Below, in pieces: positions 20,323 to 28,866 of a DNA stretch of 39,103 bases; within the stretch, counting starts at the first letter, position 1, and each line of letters opens with the position of its first letter. The position numbers and the translations under genes are program-made. Below the pieces are notes generated by a model. That model searched no databases. It was not told the origin of the DNA and saw only the letters and a program-made list of their open reading frames with translations. Source of the DNA: Cryobacterium sp. (GTDB lineage: Bacteria > Actinomycetota > Actinomycetes > Actinomycetales > Microbacteriaceae); assembly GCA_019639015.1 (NCBI GenBank), contig JAHBSS010000014.1:1-39103 (forward strand), written 5' to 3'.

Positions 20323-21210
20323 GTGAATCGAATGGGCCAGCGCTCCGCGGGGGCAACGAGCCTAATTGCGGCTGAGTTGAGTATCGGGTTCGGTTCATCT
20401 CTCGCAGGAATCTTGATCCCGATTGTTGGAAGCGTTGTGGTAGTTGCAGCGCGGCAACTCGTCACGGTGCTAATACTGCTTCCGACCGTTCGCCCACGCC
20501 TTACCGGAAAGAGTTTCAAGTCACTATTGCCAGTGATTGGCCTCGGCGTCGTGCTCGCAACAATGAACCTAAGCTTCTACGAGTCACTAGGAAGGATCGG
20601 TCTGGGACTCGCAGTAACGATCGAATTCTTCGGACCCCTTTCAATTGCGCTGCTCACGTCGCGGAGGTTCTTGGATTTTTTGTGTGTCGCGGCGGTTGGT
20701 CTCGGTGTCTACCTACTTGCCGACGGGGAAAAGCACCTCGACCTAATCGGTGTGATTCTCGCGATCGTTGCCGGTGCAAGTTGGGCGTGCTACATCCTGC
20801 TGGCCAAAACCGTGGCGCGAAGATTCAAAGGTTTAGAGGGATTGAGTATGGCTAGCGTGATTTCGCTCGCAATCCTCGCCCCCGCCGCCCTAGCACTTAT
20901 TGATTGGTCACAATTGAACTGGTGGGTAATCGGTCTGTTGCTTGCTACCGGAATACTTTGCTCCGCCATTCCCTACAGCCTTGACGCATTCATTCTTAGA
21001 CGAATTACCGCTCGTCTCTATTCGATCATTCTCAGTACAGCGCCAGCGATTGCGGCTCTGTTCGGTTGGCTGGTGCTTGGCCAACAGTTGACTTGGTTGC
21101 AAGTTTTCGCAGTGATTCTTGTGACGCTTGCCGCAGCAATCACATTCGCCACCCAAAAGGATGAGGGGCCAAGCTCTGAACTTGAGGGTGCGGCTACAGT
21201 TACGCCTTGA
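20323..21210 (+). CDS. EamA/DMT family transporter, RhtA-like amino acid exporter
   Basis: This 295-residue protein has ten predicted spans in two EamA repeats. Segments such as LGLAVTIEFFGPLSIALLTSRR, AGASWACYILLAKTVA and AIPYSLDAFILRRI follow E. coli RhtA (threonine/homoserine exporter) closely. It probably exports an amino acid such as threonine or homoserine. The GTG start fits a leaderless promoter and gives the expected N-terminus. Its stop overlaps the end of the convergent cystathionine gene by 11 bases. It is divergent from the APC permease. Confidence 0.88.
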   Translation: MNRMGQRSAGATSLIAAELSIGFGSSLAGILIPIVGSVVVVAARQLVTVLILLPTVRPRLTGKSFKSLLPVIGLGVVLATMNLSFYESLGRIGLGLAVTIEFFGPLSIALLTSRRFLDFLCVAAVGLGVYLLADGEKHLDLIGVILAIVAGASWACYILLAKTVARRFKGLEGLSMASVISLAILAPAALALIDWSQLNWWVIGLLLATGILCSAIPYSLDAFILRRITARLYSIILSTAPAIAALFGWLVLGQQLTWLQVFAVILVTLAAAITFATQKDEGPSSELEGAATVTP

Positions 21211-22342
21211 GCGCGCTAAGCACGTCATCGATCAAGTCTTTAGCCGACTCAATTCCCACTGAAAGTCGCACAAGGTTCGCCGGTACTTCAAGTTCAGTTC
21301 CTCGAACGGATGCGTGGGTCATTTCGCTTGGGTAATTCACGAGTGACTCAACTCCACCTAGAGATTCCGCGAGTTGGAAGATCTTGGTTGATTCGGCAAA
21401 CTTTCTAGCCGCAACTTCACCATCCTTGAACGCGATCGAAAGCATCCCGCCGAATCCGCGCATTTGCCGTTTGGCTAGTTCGTGGCCGGGGTGATCCTCG
21501 AGCCCTGGGTAAAGCACTGCAGACAATTTCGGATGTCCGACTAGCGCCTCAGCAAGCGCACCAGCGTTTTCTGAATGCCTCTCCATCCTCAACGAAAGCG
21601 TCTTTATCCCTCTGGTTGTGAGCCAAGCATCCATCGGGCCTGAAACCGCGCCGGCTGCGAATTGGGTAAAACCGACACGGCTTGCAAGTTCTTCGTCATT
21701 CAGAATCACCGCGCCACCGAGCACATCCGAATGCCCGCCCAAATATTTCGTTATCGAATGAACAACAACATCCGCCCCAAGAGTTAGAGGATTCTGTAGG
21801 AACGGAGAAGCGAATGTGTTGTCAACCACCGCGAGCGCTCCGCGTTCGTGCGCGAGCTTTGCAACAGCGGCAATATCGGTGATTTTCATGAGCGGATTGC
21901 TTGGAGTTTCAATCCAGACGATTTTTGTAGAGTCAGTCAGTGCGCTTTTTACTGCCTCTAGGTTTGCAAAGTCCGCAACGCTGAGACCAATCCCCCAACC
22001 GTTATACAGTCGCTTCACGAGTCTGTGCGTTCCGCCGTAAACATCATTACCCATGAGCACGTGATCCCCCGGCGCGAGCACGGATCGAAGTAACGCATCC
22101 TCAGCGGCGAGCCCCGAGGCAAAACTGTAGGCGAATCGACCGTTTTCCAAGCTCGCTAGTTGAGCTTGAAGATTGTCTCTAGTTGGGTTTGCACCGCGAG
22201 CGTACTCGTAACCACCGCGCAGATCACCGATCGCCTTTTGTACAAACGTTGAGGTGAAATACACCGGCGGCGTTACGGCGCCAGTGCTTGGGTCAAATTC
22301 TTGACCGTCGTGGATCGCTCTAGTGCTGAAGTCGTTAGTCAA
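21200..22342 (-). CDS. metB: Cystathionine gamma-lyase / gamma-synthase (PLP, Cys/Met metabolism family)
   Basis: This 380-residue PLP enzyme has FSTRAIHDGQ at the N-terminus, YEYARGANPTRDNLQ, and SITKYLGGHSD with the PLP lysine at residue 199. The chosen TTG at 22342 has GAGG six bases upstream and yields the standard family N-terminus; in-frame starts at 22354 or 22387 lie in or over the preceding gene and lack a Shine-Dalgarno. Because it follows a cystathionine beta-synthase by 8 bases, cleavage of cystathionine to cysteine (reverse transsulfuration) is the likeliest role; gamma-synthase activity cannot be excluded from sequence. Confidence 0.9.
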   Translation of the reverse strand: MTNDFSTRAIHDGQEFDPSTGAVTPPVYFTSTFVQKAIGDLRGGYEYARGANPTRDNLQAQLASLENGRFAYSFASGLAAEDALLRSVLAPGDHVLMGNDVYGGTHRLVKRLYNGWGIGLSVADFANLEAVKSALTDSTKIVWIETPSNPLMKITDIAAVAKLAHERGALAVVDNTFASPFLQNPLTLGADVVVHSITKYLGGHSDVLGGAVILNDEELASRVGFTQFAAGAVSGPMDAWLTTRGIKTLSLRMERHSENAGALAEALVGHPKLSAVLYPGLEDHPGHELAKRQMRGFGGMLSIAFKDGEVAARKFAESTKIFQLAESLGGVESLVNYPSEMTHASVRGTELEVPANLVRLSVGIESAKDLIDDVLSALKA

Positions 22343-22350
22343 TGTGTTCC

Positions 22351-23313
22351 TCACAAGCTTGATTCGAAACCGTTGTTGCGCATCCAATCGTCGTTGAATA
22401 CTTTCCCAAGGTAGCCCCGCCCACCGTCTGGCAATAACACGACAACTATTGCTTCTGCCGGTAACTCGCGCGCGATTGTCAGCGCGGCATGCGCGGCCAT
22501 CCCGCTGGAACCACCGACCAGAATGCCTTCCTCTCGCGCCAGCCGACGGGTGAGGCTAAATGAGTCGGCATCCGAAACTGTAACAATTTGATCCACGACA
22601 CTGGGATCGTATGCTTCTGGCCAGAAGTCTTCGCCGACGCCTTCCACGAAGTACCCGTGAACTGGACCGCCACCGTAAATGGACCCAACCGGTTCAGCAC
22701 CAATGATCTTGACCTTGCCTTCGGAAGTTTCCTTCAAATAGCGCCCGGTACCAGAAATAGTGCCACCCGTTCCGACACCGGCAACGAAGTGGGTGACTTT
22801 GCCGTCTGTGTCTGACCAAACTTCTGGGCCGGTCGTTTCGTAGTGGCTACGCGGGCCGTTTGGGTTCGAATACTGGTTCGGCTTGAACGCTCCAGGGATT
22901 TCTTTCGCGAGCCGATCTGAAACGCTGTAGTACGACTGTGGATCTTCAGGTTCGACGTCAGTGGGGGTGACAACAATCTCCGCGCCGTATGCCGTAAGCA
23001 CGTTCCTCTTATCAACACCAACTTTGTCCGGCAACACAAACACGCACCGGTAGCCGCGTTGCTGAGCCACCAAAGCTAGCCCCACTCCGGTGTTTCCGCT
23101 TGTGGGTTCGACAATTGTGCCGCCTGGCTTCAACTTGCCTTCGCGCTCAGCCGCATCAATGATCCTGCTGGCAATTCGATCTTTTGAGGATCCTCCCGGA
23201 TTTAGATATTCAAGCTTGGCAAACACGCTCGCCTCGATACCGTCAGTGACCGAGTTCAACCTCACGAGTGGCGTGTTCCCGACCAATTCGAGGATGTTGT
23301 TTGCGATCTTCAT
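22351..23313 (-). CDS. cbs: Cystathionine beta-synthase, catalytic domain only
   Basis: This 320-residue PLP enzyme has NPGGSSKDRIA with PLP lysine 44, the phosphate loop TSGNTGVGLA, and GVGTGGTISGTGRYLKE. Features shared with actinobacterial cystathionine beta-synthases rather than plain cysteine synthases are PDKVGVDKRNVL, SYYSVSDRL, PNQYSNPNGPRSHYETTGPE and VEGVGEDFWPE. It condenses serine and homocysteine to cystathionine. Mycobacterial homologues are about 460 residues with a C-terminal pair of CBS (Bateman) domains; here the protein ends soon after FNDDWMRNNGF, so the regulatory module is absent. TAGTTT lies eight bases before the ATG, suggesting a leaderless or near-leaderless mRNA. 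The gamma-lyase gene follows in the same operon. Confidence 0.88.
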   Translation of the reverse strand: MKIANNILELVGNTPLVRLNSVTDGIEASVFAKLEYLNPGGSSKDRIASRIIDAAEREGKLKPGGTIVEPTSGNTGVGLALVAQQRGYRCVFVLPDKVGVDKRNVLTAYGAEIVVTPTDVEPEDPQSYYSVSDRLAKEIPGAFKPNQYSNPNGPRSHYETTGPEVWSDTDGKVTHFVAGVGTGGTISGTGRYLKETSEGKVKIIGAEPVGSIYGGGPVHGYFVEGVGEDFWPEAYDPSVVDQIVTVSDADSFSLTRRLAREEGILVGGSSGMAAHAALTIARELPAEAIVVVLLPDGGRGYLGKVFNDDWMRNNGFESSL

Positions 23314-23359: not shown

Positions 23360-24793
23360 TTATGCGTTGAAGCTGTCCTCCGGGTTTTGCGCTAACCCAA
23401 GTTCGGTGATTCGTTTTTTGGCATTAGTCCTTCGATTGTCAATCTCTTTCCCAATGGCAACTGCGAGGTCAGGATTGGAGTCCGCCAACTGGTCGACAAC
23501 GTTCGTGGGGATAACGATGACGGATAAGTCTGTATCGGCGGTGACGATCGCACTGACCTTTTGTCGTGTGAGTGAGGCTAAACCGATGAATTCGAGTTGG
23601 TTTAGCTGACTTACTGCGATTTGCGTGCCGTCACTTGCTTTTACTGAAAGGGTCGCGGAACCCGTGAGCACAATTCGCACCCCGTTTGGAACAGAACCAT
23701 AACTTTGAATAGTCTCGCCCTCACCGTAACGTTCAAGCCTCACTTCGCCTCTAATGGCGTTGGCTTGTTCGTCCGAAATACGCAAGATTGGGGCCACTCG
23801 CTTGAGGGCTTGACTGTAGTTTTCGTCGCTTTGAAAGTTATCCGTCAAATCTTTGTCGTAGTGAAGGCCAGCCCGTCTAGCCGCGTACCAAAGTCGAGTC
23901 TTGAATAGTCTTGGTCCGCTGTATTGGTCTGCGACCGAATTCAAGGTCAGGTAAACCGAATAGTGTCCCTTTGGCTGCGGGGTAACGACAGCATCCACCC
24001 CTGTCGCACTTTGCGGCATTCCTCTTGCAACTTCACGACAAAGCGAGGCGACTTCTTGAGGCGGGTCATCAGTTGAGAATCGGACAAGAGTCGAAACCCC
24101 GAAACTAGTTGCTTCCCGACTCAAGTTCACAATTGAACTAGAGGCGAGGTTGGCGTTAGGAATAATCCGAATGCCATCATCAGTTTGAATGTGAACCGAA
24201 CGCCAATTGACTTCCACAACTTGGCCGCGCACTCCGTCGGCATCAAGCCAATCCCCAAGCTCAAACGGTTGTTCAAATAGCAATAGCAGCCCCGAGACCA
24301 CTGAACCAACCGCATTTTGAAGCGCGAGTCCAATCACGATCGAGCCAACACCTAGAGCGGTGAACAGTCCGCCGATGTCCGCTCCCCAAACGAATGAGAA
24401 CAACAACGCAACAAAAACAACAATTAATAACAATCGGATGAGTTCAACAAAGATCGAAGGAAACCGCTGTCGCCAGGTGCCCCGCTTTGCTGTTTCAAAA
24501 AAGGCGAGGTTGAATCCGTTGATCAATAGAAGGATTACCAAGAAGCCAAATACGGTAGCGACGACTCTTGTCCAAGTCCAGTCAACCCTTAAATAACTGG
24601 CCTGACTCAGTAGCAGTAACAGTGCCCCGACGGGAACAACAAAGTTTCGAAGCAAAGCAACTAACTTGCGAGCCGGGCTGTTCCGATTCTTGAGCGAATT
24701 GTGAATTTCGGTGAGAACTATTAGCGATAGCGGTAGTGCAAAAACGATTACGACCCCTGGCCAAAACCAAGGTTGACCGATTATTTCAGACAT
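23360..24793 (-). CDS. MscS-like mechanosensitive channel with C-terminal cNMP-binding-like domain
   Basis: This 477-residue protein has four to five membrane segments (about 11-29, 44-66, 76-98, 113-137), then an MscS pore helix and beta domain: LGVGSIVIGLALQNAVGS and LLLFEQPFELGDWL (residues 147-183), and TDDGIRIIPNANLASSSIVN. Residues about 340-450 resemble a cyclic-nucleotide-binding domain, as in bCNG channels. In the phosphate-binding cassette (FIGLASLTRQKVSA, 402-415) the usual Glu and Arg are Leu405 and Val413, so cNMP binding is doubtful. The ATG lies inside the end of the cyclase-like gene (8-base overlap), indicating tight coupling to that receptor. Confidence 0.88.
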   Translation of the reverse strand: MSEIIGQPWFWPGVVIVFALPLSLIVLTEIHNSLKNRNSPARKLVALLRNFVVPVGALLLLLSQASYLRVDWTWTRVVATVFGFLVILLLINGFNLAFFETAKRGTWRQRFPSIFVELIRLLLIVVFVALLFSFVWGADIGGLFTALGVGSIVIGLALQNAVGSVVSGLLLLFEQPFELGDWLDADGVRGQVVEVNWRSVHIQTDDGIRIIPNANLASSSIVNLSREATSFGVSTLVRFSTDDPPQEVASLCREVARGMPQSATGVDAVVTPQPKGHYSVYLTLNSVADQYSGPRLFKTRLWYAARRAGLHYDKDLTDNFQSDENYSQALKRVAPILRISDEQANAIRGEVRLERYGEGETIQSYGSVPNGVRIVLTGSATLSVKASDGTQIAVSQLNQLEFIGLASLTRQKVSAIVTADTDLSVIVIPTNVVDQLADSNPDLAVAIGKEIDNRRTNAKKRITELGLAQNPEDSFNA

Positions 24794-26939
24794 TGGCGGA
24801 GTTCAAATCCAGGCTCCAGACGGACTGGGCGCCGATCGCTGTTTCTACTGTGCCGACCGAGTTCAATCGCGTTCCCGCGGGCAAATGATCCTTCACTCTT
24901 TGGGTTATCAGCACACCTGGTTCGCTCGAGTCTCCCCTTAACTTGAGAGCCAACGTCACAGCATCTCCCCAAAGATCGTAAACAAGCTGGGACCTGCCGA
25001 TTAGTCCGCTTGTGACCGTGCCGGTGTCAATACCAGCCCTAATAGAAAGATTCGTTCCCAGCTTCTTTCCGTATCTCGCGAGGATCTGCTGAATATCAAG
25101 CGCGAAGTCTACGATTCGTCTTGCGTTGTCGACTCTTGGGACATTCAGTCCGCAACAAGCCAAGTACCCGTTTCTTGTGGTTCTAACCTTTTCCACCCCG
25201 TGAGCTTCGGCAGCTTCATCAAAACTTTTCAACACTTCATTGAGTTCTTCCAGGGCAGCGTTGGATTTGAGTGAGCGACTGTAATCGTCAAAACCCATGA
25301 TTTCGGCGTAGATCACCGATACCTCTTGATGATCTTCGACAATGTTTTGATCACCGTTTCGGAAACGTTTCGCAACGGATTGAGGCATGAGAGTCAAAAG
25401 TAGCCGTTCGTTTTCAGCAATTTGTTCATCGAGAAGCTTCGCTTTCACTTGCAAACTTTGGCTCATGTCATTGAAGGCATTGCCGACGTCAGCCAGTTCG
25501 TCGCTACTGCCAGCATCAACTTGCACATCCTGCTCCCCGGCTGCAATCTTGCTGGCAGCCAACTTCAGTCTCCGAAGTGGTCGAACAATGATTTGCGCCA
25601 AGATTAGCGAGAGTAATGACACGATAACGATCAACACCGTTGCGGAAAGCGCCAAGTTTCGGGTGAACGTTTGAACTGGAGCGAACGCTTCTGCGCTGCC
25701 AATCTCTGCAACGATCACCCAATTCAAACCCTCAAGTTTCATCGGACGATAAGCGGCTAATGAACTCTCACCCAAATAGTTGGCGCCAACAATCGTGCCA
25801 GTCTCGCCCGCAAGTGCCTTAGAAACCGCAATCGTGTCGACCGGTTGAGCCAGGAGCGTGACTCCCGTATTTGCAACTCGAGCCGCCAATTCAGCATCGA
25901 GCCCCGTCGCGACAGCGGATTTCTTGTAATCGTCTGGCTTCTCGATTACTTCTCTTGAGCTGGAGCGCATTAAGTTGTCGGATCCGACCAGATATGTTTC
26001 ACCGGTCTTTCCGAGTCCTTTTGCCTGCCATTCAAAGTCTCCAGTCATGACCTGGTTTATCGCATCTACCGGAAGTTCTACTGCTATTGCTCCAACCGGT
26101 TGACCCTCAATGCCGATCGGTGCAACCGCCCACGCTGCGGGGATACCAATCGATGGAGGATAATCTCCAAAGTCGGTGAATTGAACAGAACCGAGCAGGT
26201 TAGAATTCATGGATTTACGGTAGGCGTCAGCGAGGTTGCTAAACGAGTACGCTCCATCCAAAAGGTTGGTGCCAAGGTCCACTCCTTTATAGACGGAGTA
26301 CACGACATTGCCTTTCGAATCGATTAGCAGCAAGTCTTCATACTTCAACAATTCGACGATTCGACGAAACTGGTCATGGTATTTGGCATTCGCTGCGCTC
26401 CACGGGCTGCCGTCGCCAGCATCTACCGTTTCAATTGACTTGGAAAAGTCGTCGAACGGGATCGTGTAATGCAATTGAAGGTAGCTCTCCGCCGCGTCTT
26501 GAGGTAAGAAGCCTGCGACATCCGCATCGGCACCGATTGCCGTGTTTAGCTTTTCTGAAAACGGTCCTTCGTAATAGTCGCGGATTTTCTTTGTCTCATC
26601 ATCGGTCAGTTTCGAATCGGACAGCTCATCAAATGCGGTTGCAAAATCCGTGGCGGCTGCAACAGTCATGGAACTGCGGCCCTGAATTAGTACCGAATTC
26701 TTAATTTGCTCAAAGAGACTTGATATTTCGCGGGCCCTGGAATCTCGCACACCGATCAGCCGGTCGAAGGCGGCATCGCGCAATGAATCCGAACCATTGA
26801 CATAGCCGATCAAGCCAACGACAACGCTAGAAAGCAAGCTCACAATCATGAACATGATTAGCAAGCTTGACTGGATGCTCAAGCCGTGCCTTTTTCGTTT
26901 TGGAGCTACATCTGGCTTTGATTTTGATGCGGATGGCAC
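24786..26939 (-). CDS. Cache-HAMP receptor with divergent class III nucleotide cyclase domain
   Basis: This 717-residue membrane protein has a cytoplasmic basic start, a first span (about 25-47), an extracellular double Cache-like sensor (about 48-425), a second span (about 428-452), HAMP (453-505), a cyclase linker helix containing LMPQSVAKRF, and a class III cyclase homology domain (about 540-700). The active site is degenerate: metal Asp positions are Glu546 (AEIMGF) and Asn590 (RNGY), the base-selecting Lys is Arg586, and the transition-state Asn and Arg are Thr662 and Lys666; only Asp655 in YDLWGD is kept. Loss of ordinary cyclase activity is likely. The start is GTG at 26939 with AGGAG seven bases upstream; a TTG at 26945 is too close to it. 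It overlaps the channel gene. Confidence 0.85.
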   Translation of the reverse strand: MPSASKSKPDVAPKRKRHGLSIQSSLLIMFMIVSLLSSVVVGLIGYVNGSDSLRDAAFDRLIGVRDSRAREISSLFEQIKNSVLIQGRSSMTVAAATDFATAFDELSDSKLTDDETKKIRDYYEGPFSEKLNTAIGADADVAGFLPQDAAESYLQLHYTIPFDDFSKSIETVDAGDGSPWSAANAKYHDQFRRIVELLKYEDLLLIDSKGNVVYSVYKGVDLGTNLLDGAYSFSNLADAYRKSMNSNLLGSVQFTDFGDYPPSIGIPAAWAVAPIGIEGQPVGAIAVELPVDAINQVMTGDFEWQAKGLGKTGETYLVGSDNLMRSSSREVIEKPDDYKKSAVATGLDAELAARVANTGVTLLAQPVDTIAVSKALAGETGTIVGANYLGESSLAAYRPMKLEGLNWVIVAEIGSAEAFAPVQTFTRNLALSATVLIVIVSLLSLILAQIIVRPLRRLKLAASKIAAGEQDVQVDAGSSDELADVGNAFNDMSQSLQVKAKLLDEQIAENERLLLTLMPQSVAKRFRNGDQNIVEDHQEVSVIYAEIMGFDDYSRSLKSNAALEELNEVLKSFDEAAEAHGVEKVRTTRNGYLACCGLNVPRVDNARRIVDFALDIQQILARYGKKLGTNLSIRAGIDTGTVTSGLIGRSQLVYDLWGDAVTLALKLRGDSSEPGVLITQRVKDHLPAGTRLNSVGTVETAIGAQSVWSLDLNSANV

Positions 26940-26978
26940 GGGCAATCTCCTGTCTGGCCTCCAGAGTTACTGGCAAAT

Positions 26979-27012: not shown

Positions 27013-28866
27013 TCATTTCGGCGAATTAAGTTGCTCGTTGTAGAGCTCGAAATAGGCGCCCCTTCGAGACAGTAATTCTTCGTGCGTTCCGGATTCGCGT
27101 ATTTGGCCGTTTTCGATAACAAAGATCACGTCGGCGGAAATAATCGTTGAAAGTCGGTGCGCTATGGCGATTGTGGTTCTGCCTTTTGAAGCCTCATCCA
27201 AGGCGTTCTGGACTGATCTTTCCGAAATGGAATCAAGGGCGCTGGTTGCTTCATCCAGAATTAGAACGGGAGGGTCTTTCAAAAGCACTCGAGCAATCGC
27301 GATTCTTTGCTTCTCGCCTCCGCTCAATCGGTAACCTCGCTCACCAACCACCGTTTCGTAGCCTTCAGGGAACTTCAAGATCGCGTCGTGAATGTTTGCT
27401 GCCCGACACGCGTGTTCAATTTCCGATTGCGTCGCACCCGGTTTTGCATACTTCAGGTTTTCCAGAATCGTCGAGTGAAACAAGTATGTCTCTTGACTAA
27501 CTATTCCGATGTTGGCTTGCAGCGAATCCAATTTGAGGCTCTTGACATCCTCACCGGCGAATCTCACAACACCAGCGGTTGCGTCATGCAGCCGTGGAAT
27601 CAAATAGGCGATGGTCGTCTTTCCCGCCCCCGAAGGTCCGACAAAAGCCGCGAACTCTCCCGGTTTGATCGTAAAACTCACGTCTCGCAAAATGGGCGCG
27701 AGATTCGTCACTTGATCGGGGTAATGAAAGTCAACATTCTCAAACTCGACCAACCCTAGCGGAGCTTGTGTCGATAGTTGTTTCGCACCTGGAAGGTCCG
27801 AAATTGCGGGTTTCAAATCCAAGTACTCAAAGATTCGCGCAAACAAGGCGCCGGAGGTCTGTAAGTCAAGCGCCAGCCTAAGCAAACCCATCATCGGGGA
27901 CATGAGTCTTGCCTGCACGGTTGTGAACGCGACAATGGTTCCGGCGGTCACTGGTACCTCGTGCTCAATTAGCCACGCCGCCGTGATGTAGATGATTGCT
28001 GGAATTACGGCAAGAAAGATTTGTACGAGCGCAAAGAACCATTGGCCGCTCATTTGAAGTTTCACTTGGAGGCCAACTTGATTTTGGTTCTCGCGTTCGT
28101 ATCGACGGATTTCGCTGTCTTGCTGATTGAAACTTTTGGCTAGCAGAATGCCAGAAACTGACAACGACTCTTGCGTTATGGCCGTTAGTTCACTCAGCGA
28201 CTCCTGTGTCTTCGTTGCGATCCGAGCTCTCACCTGACCAACTCGCCTTTGAACAATCACGAGCAGAGGCATGAGGATTACCGCTACAACGGTAAGTTGC
28301 CACGAGAGCAGCAGCATCGCAATTAGAGCAGCAGCTACCGAAACCGTATTGCCGAGCACGCTAGAAACGGTGTTTGTTAGTACCCCCGCAACACCACCGA
28401 CGTCGTTTTGGAGTCGCGATTGGATTACTCCCGTGCGAGTACGTGTGAAGAATGCGAACTCCATACTTTGCAAGTGACGAAACAACTTGACCCGCAGGTT
28501 ACTCATTACCTTGTTGCCAACGGTTGCCGTGAGTCGAGTTCGAATAACGCTCACAGCTCCAGAGGCGACATAAATCGCAACCATCAAAGTTACGATCTCG
28601 ATGAGCACCGGCATGTTGGGGCCACCCTTAGGGAACAGCCCGAGATCAAACGCTTTTTGAGTAAGTAGCGGCGGGATGACAGAAAGAGTCGCGCCCAAGA
28701 TCACGAGAATCCCGGTGAAAATTAGAGCCGTCTTGTGGAGTTCAAACAGTTGCGCAATTCGTCGAAATAAGCCATCGATCTTCGGTGCTGCCTGATTGGC
28801 AAGCTTTTGTGCTTTTGCGTCGGGGCTACCGATCCTGCCGCGACCGCGGCCACCGTCCATGCTCAT
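27013..28866 (-). CDS. ABC exporter, fused permease and ATP-binding domains
   Basis: This 617-residue half-transporter has an N-terminal six-span membrane domain (about residues 50-345, beginning FTGILVILGATLSVIPPLL) and a C-terminal ATPase: Walker A GPSGAGKTT, Q-loop GIVSQETYLFHSTI, signature LSGGEKQRIAIARVL, Walker B VLILDEATSALD and His-switch IAHRLST. It is of the MsbA/LmrA multidrug or lipid exporter type and should work as a homodimer because all ATPase motifs are intact. The N-terminal 20 residues are Gly/Arg-rich. TAGCCT lies seven bases before the ATG, indicating a leaderless promoter. Substrate unknown. Confidence 0.92.
   Translation of the reverse strand: MSMDGGRGRGRIGSPDAKAQKLANQAAPKIDGLFRRIAQLFELHKTALIFTGILVILGATLSVIPPLLTQKAFDLGLFPKGGPNMPVLIEIVTLMVAIYVASGAVSVIRTRLTATVGNKVMSNLRVKLFRHLQSMEFAFFTRTRTGVIQSRLQNDVGGVAGVLTNTVSSVLGNTVSVAAALIAMLLLSWQLTVVAVILMPLLVIVQRRVGQVRARIATKTQESLSELTAITQESLSVSGILLAKSFNQQDSEIRRYERENQNQVGLQVKLQMSGQWFFALVQIFLAVIPAIIYITAAWLIEHEVPVTAGTIVAFTTVQARLMSPMMGLLRLALDLQTSGALFARIFEYLDLKPAISDLPGAKQLSTQAPLGLVEFENVDFHYPDQVTNLAPILRDVSFTIKPGEFAAFVGPSGAGKTTIAYLIPRLHDATAGVVRFAGEDVKSLKLDSLQANIGIVSQETYLFHSTILENLKYAKPGATQSEIEHACRAANIHDAILKFPEGYETVVGERGYRLSGGEKQRIAIARVLLKDPPVLILDEATSALDSISERSVQNALDEASKGRTTIAIAHRLSTIISADVIFVIENGQIRESGTHEELLSRRGAYFELYNEQLNSPK

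Follow-up and report, generated by a model that had tools for sequence, protein, structure and literature searches.

A Widespread Actinobacterial Pair of a Degenerate Cyclase-Like Receptor and an MscS-Type Channel with a Possible cAMP-Independent Mode of Action

Introduction

How might a receptor that is built like an adenylate cyclase act on the channel encoded next to it, if the residues that make a cyclic nucleotide and those that hold it are largely missing? The question is raised by two overlapping genes in a stretch of 39,103 nucleotides, here called the window (Cryobacterium sp., contig JAHBSS010000014.1; positions are in the numbering of the whole stretch). The receptor gene (24786..26939, minus strand, GTG start) encodes a Cache-like extracellular domain, a HAMP domain and a degenerate class III cyclase homology domain. 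The channel gene (23360..24793, minus strand), delimited by its open reading frame (ORF) and Pfam matches, encodes an MscS-type protein of 477 amino acids with a C-terminal domain resembling cyclic-nucleotide-binding domains (CNBD). Both frames are open, and the 8 bases that the end of the receptor gene shares with the beginning of the channel gene, noted in the original prediction, lie by the ORF coordinates at 24786..24793 (minus strand).

We give roughly even credence to a receptor–channel unit that is independent of cyclic AMP (cAMP), in which a non-catalytic pseudo-cyclase acts by contact on the non-cAMP CNBD of the channel. The basis at the sequence level consists of the gene pairing and overlap, the family-wide loss of both the catalytic set and the cassette Glu and Arg, the retention of the predicted folds, purifying selection, and correlated divergence of the two proteins.

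Loss of Catalytic Residues in the Receptor

The Guanylate_cyc profile (PF00211) matches the window receptor with 108.6 bits, above its cut-off, which places the degenerate domain (24843..25337, minus strand) in the class III cyclase fold family. Six positions define catalysis in this class: two metal-binding Asp, a Lys and an Asp that bind the base, and an Asn and an Arg of the transition state. In the alignment with Rv1625c of Mycobacterium tuberculosis, the reference for these positions, the window receptor has E, R, N, D, T and K for D, K, D, D, N and R. The five substitutions named in the original prediction (E546, R586, N590, T662 and K666, numbered from the GTG start, i.e., the numbering from an alternative TTG start minus 2) are thus all present, and only D655, one of six residues of an active enzyme, is retained. 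According to an excerpt of PMC3961136, class III cyclases require the two metal Asp. We infer that the window receptor is a non-catalytic pseudo-cyclase.

The same positions were counted in 105 distinct receptors, including that of the window, after removal of L009, which is identical to L053; seven receptors and the channels of the distant triads described below are excluded from the family counts. The first metal position holds D in 70 receptors, E in 29, Q in 5 and N in 1, and the second one N in 52, G in 15, S in 13, Q in 8, E in 7, T in 4, A and D in 2 each, and R and K in 1 each. At the base Lys position, Arg (102) or His (3) is found and never Lys, and the base Asp position is D in 99, A in 5 and S in 1. 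The transition-state Asn position is more mixed (N 53, S 37, D 12, T 2, H 1), as is that of the transition-state Arg (R 57, Q 43, five others once each). Both metal Asp never occur together (0/105), and the two receptors with the second Asp both lack the first. No receptor keeps more than four of the six catalytic residues, and the window, with one, is among the 10 lowest. No family receptor read has the base Lys or both metal Asp, so the loss exceeds chance; the degeneracy is a fixed trait of this old actinobacterial family.

As a control, cyclases outside the family were read in two carrier genomes of group f22, regarded as mycobacterial since the tree places its members among named Mycobacteriaceae. 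These genomes have 16 and 12 PF00211 matches, of which 20/28 were read; two of those read are family members, and the remaining 18 (18/18) all keep both Asp and the Arg. The counts support a receptor-side loss that is both family-wide and specific. Within the cyclase domain, the second metal position varies more than 81% of the columns, its neighbours G593-L595 are 92–99% conserved, and the base-site residues R588 and D657 in TTG numbering (R586 and D655 in GTG numbering) are kept at 96% and 94% (weighted). Selection thus appears to have been lifted from catalysis but to be maintained on the fold and on a part of the base site.

Altered Phosphate-Binding Cassette in the Channel

The MS_channel_2nd profile (PF00924) matches the MscS beta domain of the window channel (24116..24313, minus strand) with 70.1 bits against a cut-off of 20.2, and solved MscS and YnaI chains match as well, which places the protein in the MscS superfamily. 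The cNMP_binding profile (PF00027) reaches 41.7 bits, above cut-off, at the C-terminal CNBD-like domain (23474..23734, minus strand), the fold of which is predicted to be intact. In active domains, the Glu of the phosphate-binding cassette serves to hold the cyclic nucleotide. For the cassette Arg, a role in cyclic-nucleotide binding is described in an excerpt of PMC10959531. In the window channel, the cassette (G404-S414; 23552..23584, minus strand) has L405 and V413 at these positions, in agreement with the original prediction, and therefore lacks the Glu and Arg of the bacterial cyclic-nucleotide-gated (bCNG) channels.

Among the family channels, 101 are readable at the cassette (not so L087, L089, L097 and the second copy in L121), and none of them (0/101) has Glu/Asp or Arg/Lys at the two positions. 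Because CRP has two more residues in the cassette loop, the alignment can shift: the CRP Arg aligns to V413 once eight longer relatives are included, but not in two other alignments. The loss of the Glu is independent of this gap, as Glu or Asp occurs nowhere at residues 402-409 in the 101 channels. The loss of the Arg depends slightly on the alignment; residue 413 is Arg or Lys in 0/101, and Arg or Lys stands within one residue of it in 20/101, including the window channel with K412. Residue 410 is basic in 97/101, within a near-invariant T409-R410 motif that lies at 23564-23569 in the window and is a possible contact or ligand site. The original prediction had considered compensation by nearby residues as a finding that would speak against it. 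The near-invariant R410 or K412 of the window could indeed compensate.

As an outgroup, 11 of the 37 plasmid records that contain a channel match were taken; three of the 11 have no CNBD in the ORF and eight were read. No cyclase match was found in the fetched flanks (3–4 kb) of the 11 records. The eight partnerless proteobacterial channels lie on large plasmids and have mixed cassettes (L181, L182, L183, L218, L219, L220, L222 and L225). The Glu is kept in four of them and the Arg in one, both together only in L181.

Distribution and Gene Pairing

Counting the window's genome, 13 of 149 relatives carry the receptor (E ≤ 1e-20), and the channel adjoins it in all of them. Across the phylum, it is found in 17/396 genomes (E ≤ 1e-50), and a profile search detects family-level channels in the same 17 (E ≤ 2.6e-30); the weaker profile matches listed (E ≤ 1e-20) stop short of the CNBD. 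A plain channel search at 1e-40 yields 15/396 genomes. Loci from named genomes, the best 80 of 447 relatives, belong mostly to Microbacteriaceae and Mycobacteriaceae, with a few others and one metagenome-assembled genome (MAG) named Acidobacteria. In 78 of these 80 loci, the receptor gene is followed by the channel gene on its own strand. The pairing is widespread, as had been suspected. The exceptions are L087, which lies near a contig edge, and L097. The mycobacterial pairing for which the original prediction gave Rv2435c and Rv2434c as its example is supported for many named Mycobacterium and Mycolicibacterium loci in this set.

Of 76 pairs measured, 55 have overlapping genes; gaps range from −8 to +31 bases, with a median of −4 (the 76 pairs come from 75 of the 78 channel-bearing loci; no value was obtained for L069, L082 and L089). 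The pair is duplicated in tandem in Mycobacterium simulans (L121:4501-11074), where the second channel is truncated by the locus end, and it also occurs twice in genome G527.

Evolution of the Pair

A tree of 60 cyclase domains groups the family in one clade (SH-like approximate likelihood ratio test, SH-aLRT, 98) and the triad receptors in another (92). Of the canonical groups, that of Rv1625c lies nearest; the order of the clades is not resolved, and several branches are long. The triads are four complete loci with the order receptor A, channel, receptor B (L214-L217; genomes G669, G178, G231 and G450), and G300 shows only part of a triad-type locus. They lie in distant families of the phylum, and each combines two distinct kinds of receptor. 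The first metal Asp and the transition-state Arg are missing from all eight triad receptors, and even a mixed A/B dimer would therefore have no complete site. The A receptors keep more than the main family does (base Asp in 4/4, second metal Asp in 3/4). None of the three triad channels read (L165, L166 and L167) has the Glu.

Receptor and channel diverge together. Given three neighbour genes, their distances correlate with r 0.84 over 11 loci, a value reached in 0/2000 permutations, and given two neighbours with r 0.81 over 15 loci. Under such control, the receptor or the channel correlates with the neighbours at 0.09 to 0.48. A set of 18 loci with the ABC gene alone controlled gives r 0.88; it includes L084 and L109, the ABC genes of which may be paralogues, and the smaller sets are therefore preferred.

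The ratio of nonsynonymous to synonymous substitution rates (dN/dS), estimated by simple counting in close pairs (dN ≤ 0.1, dS ≤ 0.6), is 0.04–0.18 in the cyclase domain (14 pairs) and 0.05–0.33 in the CNBD (15 pairs), which indicates purifying selection. Wider pairs, in which the ratio reaches 0.79 for the cyclase domain and 1.41 for the CNBD, are near saturation and were not used. Recent decay into pseudogenes was rejected on account of the open frames, the family-wide loss and the purifying selection on close pairs.

Other Cyclases in Carrier Genomes

In the window's genome, which is 88% complete, the receptor is the sole PF00211 match. Five of six genus carriers of the pair have no second match (E ≤ 0.001); the exception, G006, has an extra one of 22.4 bits with D, D, D, V, N and K at the six positions. 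Likewise, 8/9 further carriers of the same family or order have no second match at a different cut-off (E ≤ 1e-8), and G485 has a partial one. Taken together, 13 of the 15 carriers that lie outside the mycobacterial group yielded no additional class III cyclase domain, other cyclase classes not having been searched for. The abstract of a 2004 survey (PMC2447327) reports only class III among the cyclases of actinobacteria then known. CNBD proteins besides the channel occur in 4/6 genus carriers, but not in G000 and G002.

Gene Layout and Neighbourhood

For the receptor, GTG is the better start, because an AGGAG motif lies 7 nt ahead of it and only 1 nt ahead of the alternative TTG, which would extend the ORF to 24786-26945. 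The extracellular stretch (25707..26345, minus strand) resembles dCache_1 with 27.1 bits, below the cut-off of 45, and blocks across residues 31-440 of the receptor model have a mean predicted local distance difference test (pLDDT) score of at least 83. The HAMP domain (25449..25601, minus strand) matches with 51.5 bits, above cut-off, and has low confidence in the structure model.

The pair of the window is flanked by genes at 21200-23313 and 27013-28866, in a setting of ABC transporter and cysteine-metabolism genes, and only 46 bases separate the channel from a cysteine-synthase-like gene. In 14 to 17 mostly Microbacteriaceae loci, an ABC transporter is encoded upstream of the pair and two cysteine-metabolism genes downstream, as judged by reading the neighbour sequences without a family search; the mycobacterial loci L084 and L109 also fall into the ABC cluster. 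None of the 14 largest neighbour clusters spans Microbacteriaceae and Mycobacteriaceae loci in bulk, and no third conserved partner emerged from them.

Mechanism and Alternative Explanations

In the proposed mechanism, the Cache-like domain would bind a signal from outside the cell, and this would alter the HAMP domain and the pseudo-cyclase dimer of the receptor. The pseudo-cyclase would relay this change by direct contact to the cytosolic domain of the channel, and the contact would set the ease of channel opening. The receptor would be a dimer that touches the channel and controls it in this direction; it presumably makes no nucleotide, and neither cAMP nor cyclic GMP (cGMP) is expected to gate the channel. 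Direct contact is plausible because the genes overlap, which fits co-assembly, and because the distances correlate. The double residue loss suggests that receptor and channel communicate without cAMP. In line with the original prediction, function without cAMP is the best reading, given how widespread the pairing is, the specific receptor-side loss throughout the family, and the 13 of 15 carriers outside the mycobacterial group in which no other class III cyclase domain that could feed the channel was matched. A wider proposal is more tentative and falls short of even credence: the pairs may represent an ancient class of MscS channels that are operated by receptors in actinobacteria. The receptor would originally have produced the nucleotide, and a dead pseudo-cyclase dimer would now physically replace this product, acting directly on the dead nucleotide domain of the channel. 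In the distant relatives, the A and B receptors on either side of the channel gene may form an asymmetric receptor.

Several observations weigh against a contact mechanism free of nucleotides. The conservation of R586 and D655 would also fit retained nucleotide binding. Carboxylates stand at both metal positions in 8/105 receptors, and 5/106 alignment rows depart from the canon only conservatively (DREDNR four times, EREDNR once), so activity is possible in these receptors. The triad A receptors retain the base Lys (4/4), and the triad channel L167 has Arg at the cassette Arg column, where L165 and L166 do not. R410 (97/101) or a basic residue at 412-414 (20/101) could hold a ligand, and with Arg or Lys so close to the lost Arg, a shifted phosphate contact is possible. 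One family receptor, from a Mycobacterium MAG (L097:2139-4244), has no channel directly downstream. Correlations are seen among the neighbour genes as well (ABC-CBS 0.60, ABC-CGS 0.58), and joint horizontal transfer of the pair could yield the correlation of distances. Finally, the cassette Glu, Arg or both are gone in 7/8 partnerless proteobacterial channels. The channel-side loss is thus not specific to pairing, which speaks against pairing as its cause, and the channel side may have been cAMP-free before or apart from it. The 'parallel loss on both sides' of the original prediction is not supported as stated: the losses are common to the whole sampled family and do not represent two recent events. 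No member of the family keeps either site intact, which leaves no contrast inside it for the comparison of homologous pairs that the original prediction had suggested.

Among the alternatives, a ligand switch is rather unlikely. Here, the pseudo-cyclase or the CNBD would bind another small molecule (a nucleoside triphosphate, a nucleoside, or a cyclic nucleotide in a changed way) that gates the channel, for which the base site and R410 could be used. The cassette Glu is gone as well, and Glu or Asp at residue 407, which corresponds by motif rather than by structure to the ribose-cassette Glu of the trypanosomatid protein described below, occurs in 0/101 channels; with this Glu missing, a trypanosomatid-type switch is not supported. 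We consider it quite improbable that the two genes are merely co-expressed, with the receptor signalling elsewhere or with the CNBD as a structural leftover of a channel that answers membrane tension alone. Two papers on MscS-CNBD (bCNG) channels do report tension gating, as far as their titles cited in PMC4560390 tell, and both partnerless degenerate channels and the L097 receptor would fit. The near-strict pairing, the gene overlap, the duplication as a pair, the correlated divergence and the selection on both domains argue against it. Survival of catalysis is very improbable: a substituted cyclase, alone or as a heterodimer, would still make a nucleotide that the channel reads via its altered residues. 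The eight receptors with both metal-position carboxylates, the 27/106 rows in which transition-state Asn and Arg are both kept, and the numerous PF00211 matches of the two mycobacterial-group carriers favour this possibility. It is opposed by the single catalytic residue left in the window receptor, by the lack of a second PF00211 partner in most carriers outside that group at the cut-offs given above, and by the two residues missing from all receptors of the four complete triads.

Comparison with Known Systems

The components of the pair are known, and the mycobacterial pair probably is as well. M. tuberculosis Rv2435c is paired with what we take to be its partner channel, Rv2434c. The 2004 survey PMC2447327, known from its abstract and outline, mentions Rv2435c 10 times and Rv2434c 3 times, so the pairing, and perhaps the missing residues too, may already be in print there. 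In the literature searched, titles and the beginnings of abstracts reveal no report of a double, family-wide loss. In the excerpts available of PMC3961136 and PMC4822843, Rv2435c is counted among the M. tuberculosis adenylate cyclases, described as a double-Cache adenylate cyclase (PMC4822843) and placed in the mammalian-type group with Rv1625c (PMC3961136). The 16 or 17 cyclases that abstracts give for this species are taken to indicate rich signalling by cAMP. Should receptors of this type not produce cAMP, the cyclase count of M. tuberculosis and the assays built on it would change.

Rv1625c-type cyclases have a six-helix membrane domain. Compared with these mammalian-like class III enzymes, the family receptor has lost the catalytic set and carries a Cache-HAMP input. 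The family channel shares the MscS beta domain, the pore region and the C-terminal CNBD fold with the bCNG channels, on which Caldwell 2010 and Malcolm 2012 are cited in PMC4560390. Unlike the bCNG channels, the family channels lack the cassette Glu and Arg (101/101 readable), and a receptor gene adjoins them in the loci read.

According to an excerpt of PMC10959531, the regulatory subunit of trypanosomatid protein kinase A (PKA) has a CNB domain with the cassette Arg replaced, and nucleoside-binding CNB domains are marked by a Glu at the position of A202 in PKA RI-alpha. This ribose-binding Glu is absent from the family channels, which sets them apart from the nucleoside-binding type. A precedent for contact is offered by the KCNH channels, in which, as described in a part of PMC7515569, the PAS domain contacts the CNBD homologue (CNBHD), which serves as a contact site and not as a cAMP sensor, and an intrinsic-ligand strand follows the C helix. 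The region of the window channel where such a strand would lie, residues 470-477, has low confidence in the single-chain model (pLDDT < 50). KCNH proteins (EAG/ERG/ELK) are voltage-gated K channels with the sensor in the same chain, whereas receptor and channel of the actinobacterial family are separate chains. If receptors of this type make no cAMP, CNBD-type channels regulated by contact could be studied in a bacterial counterpart, and in harmless species.

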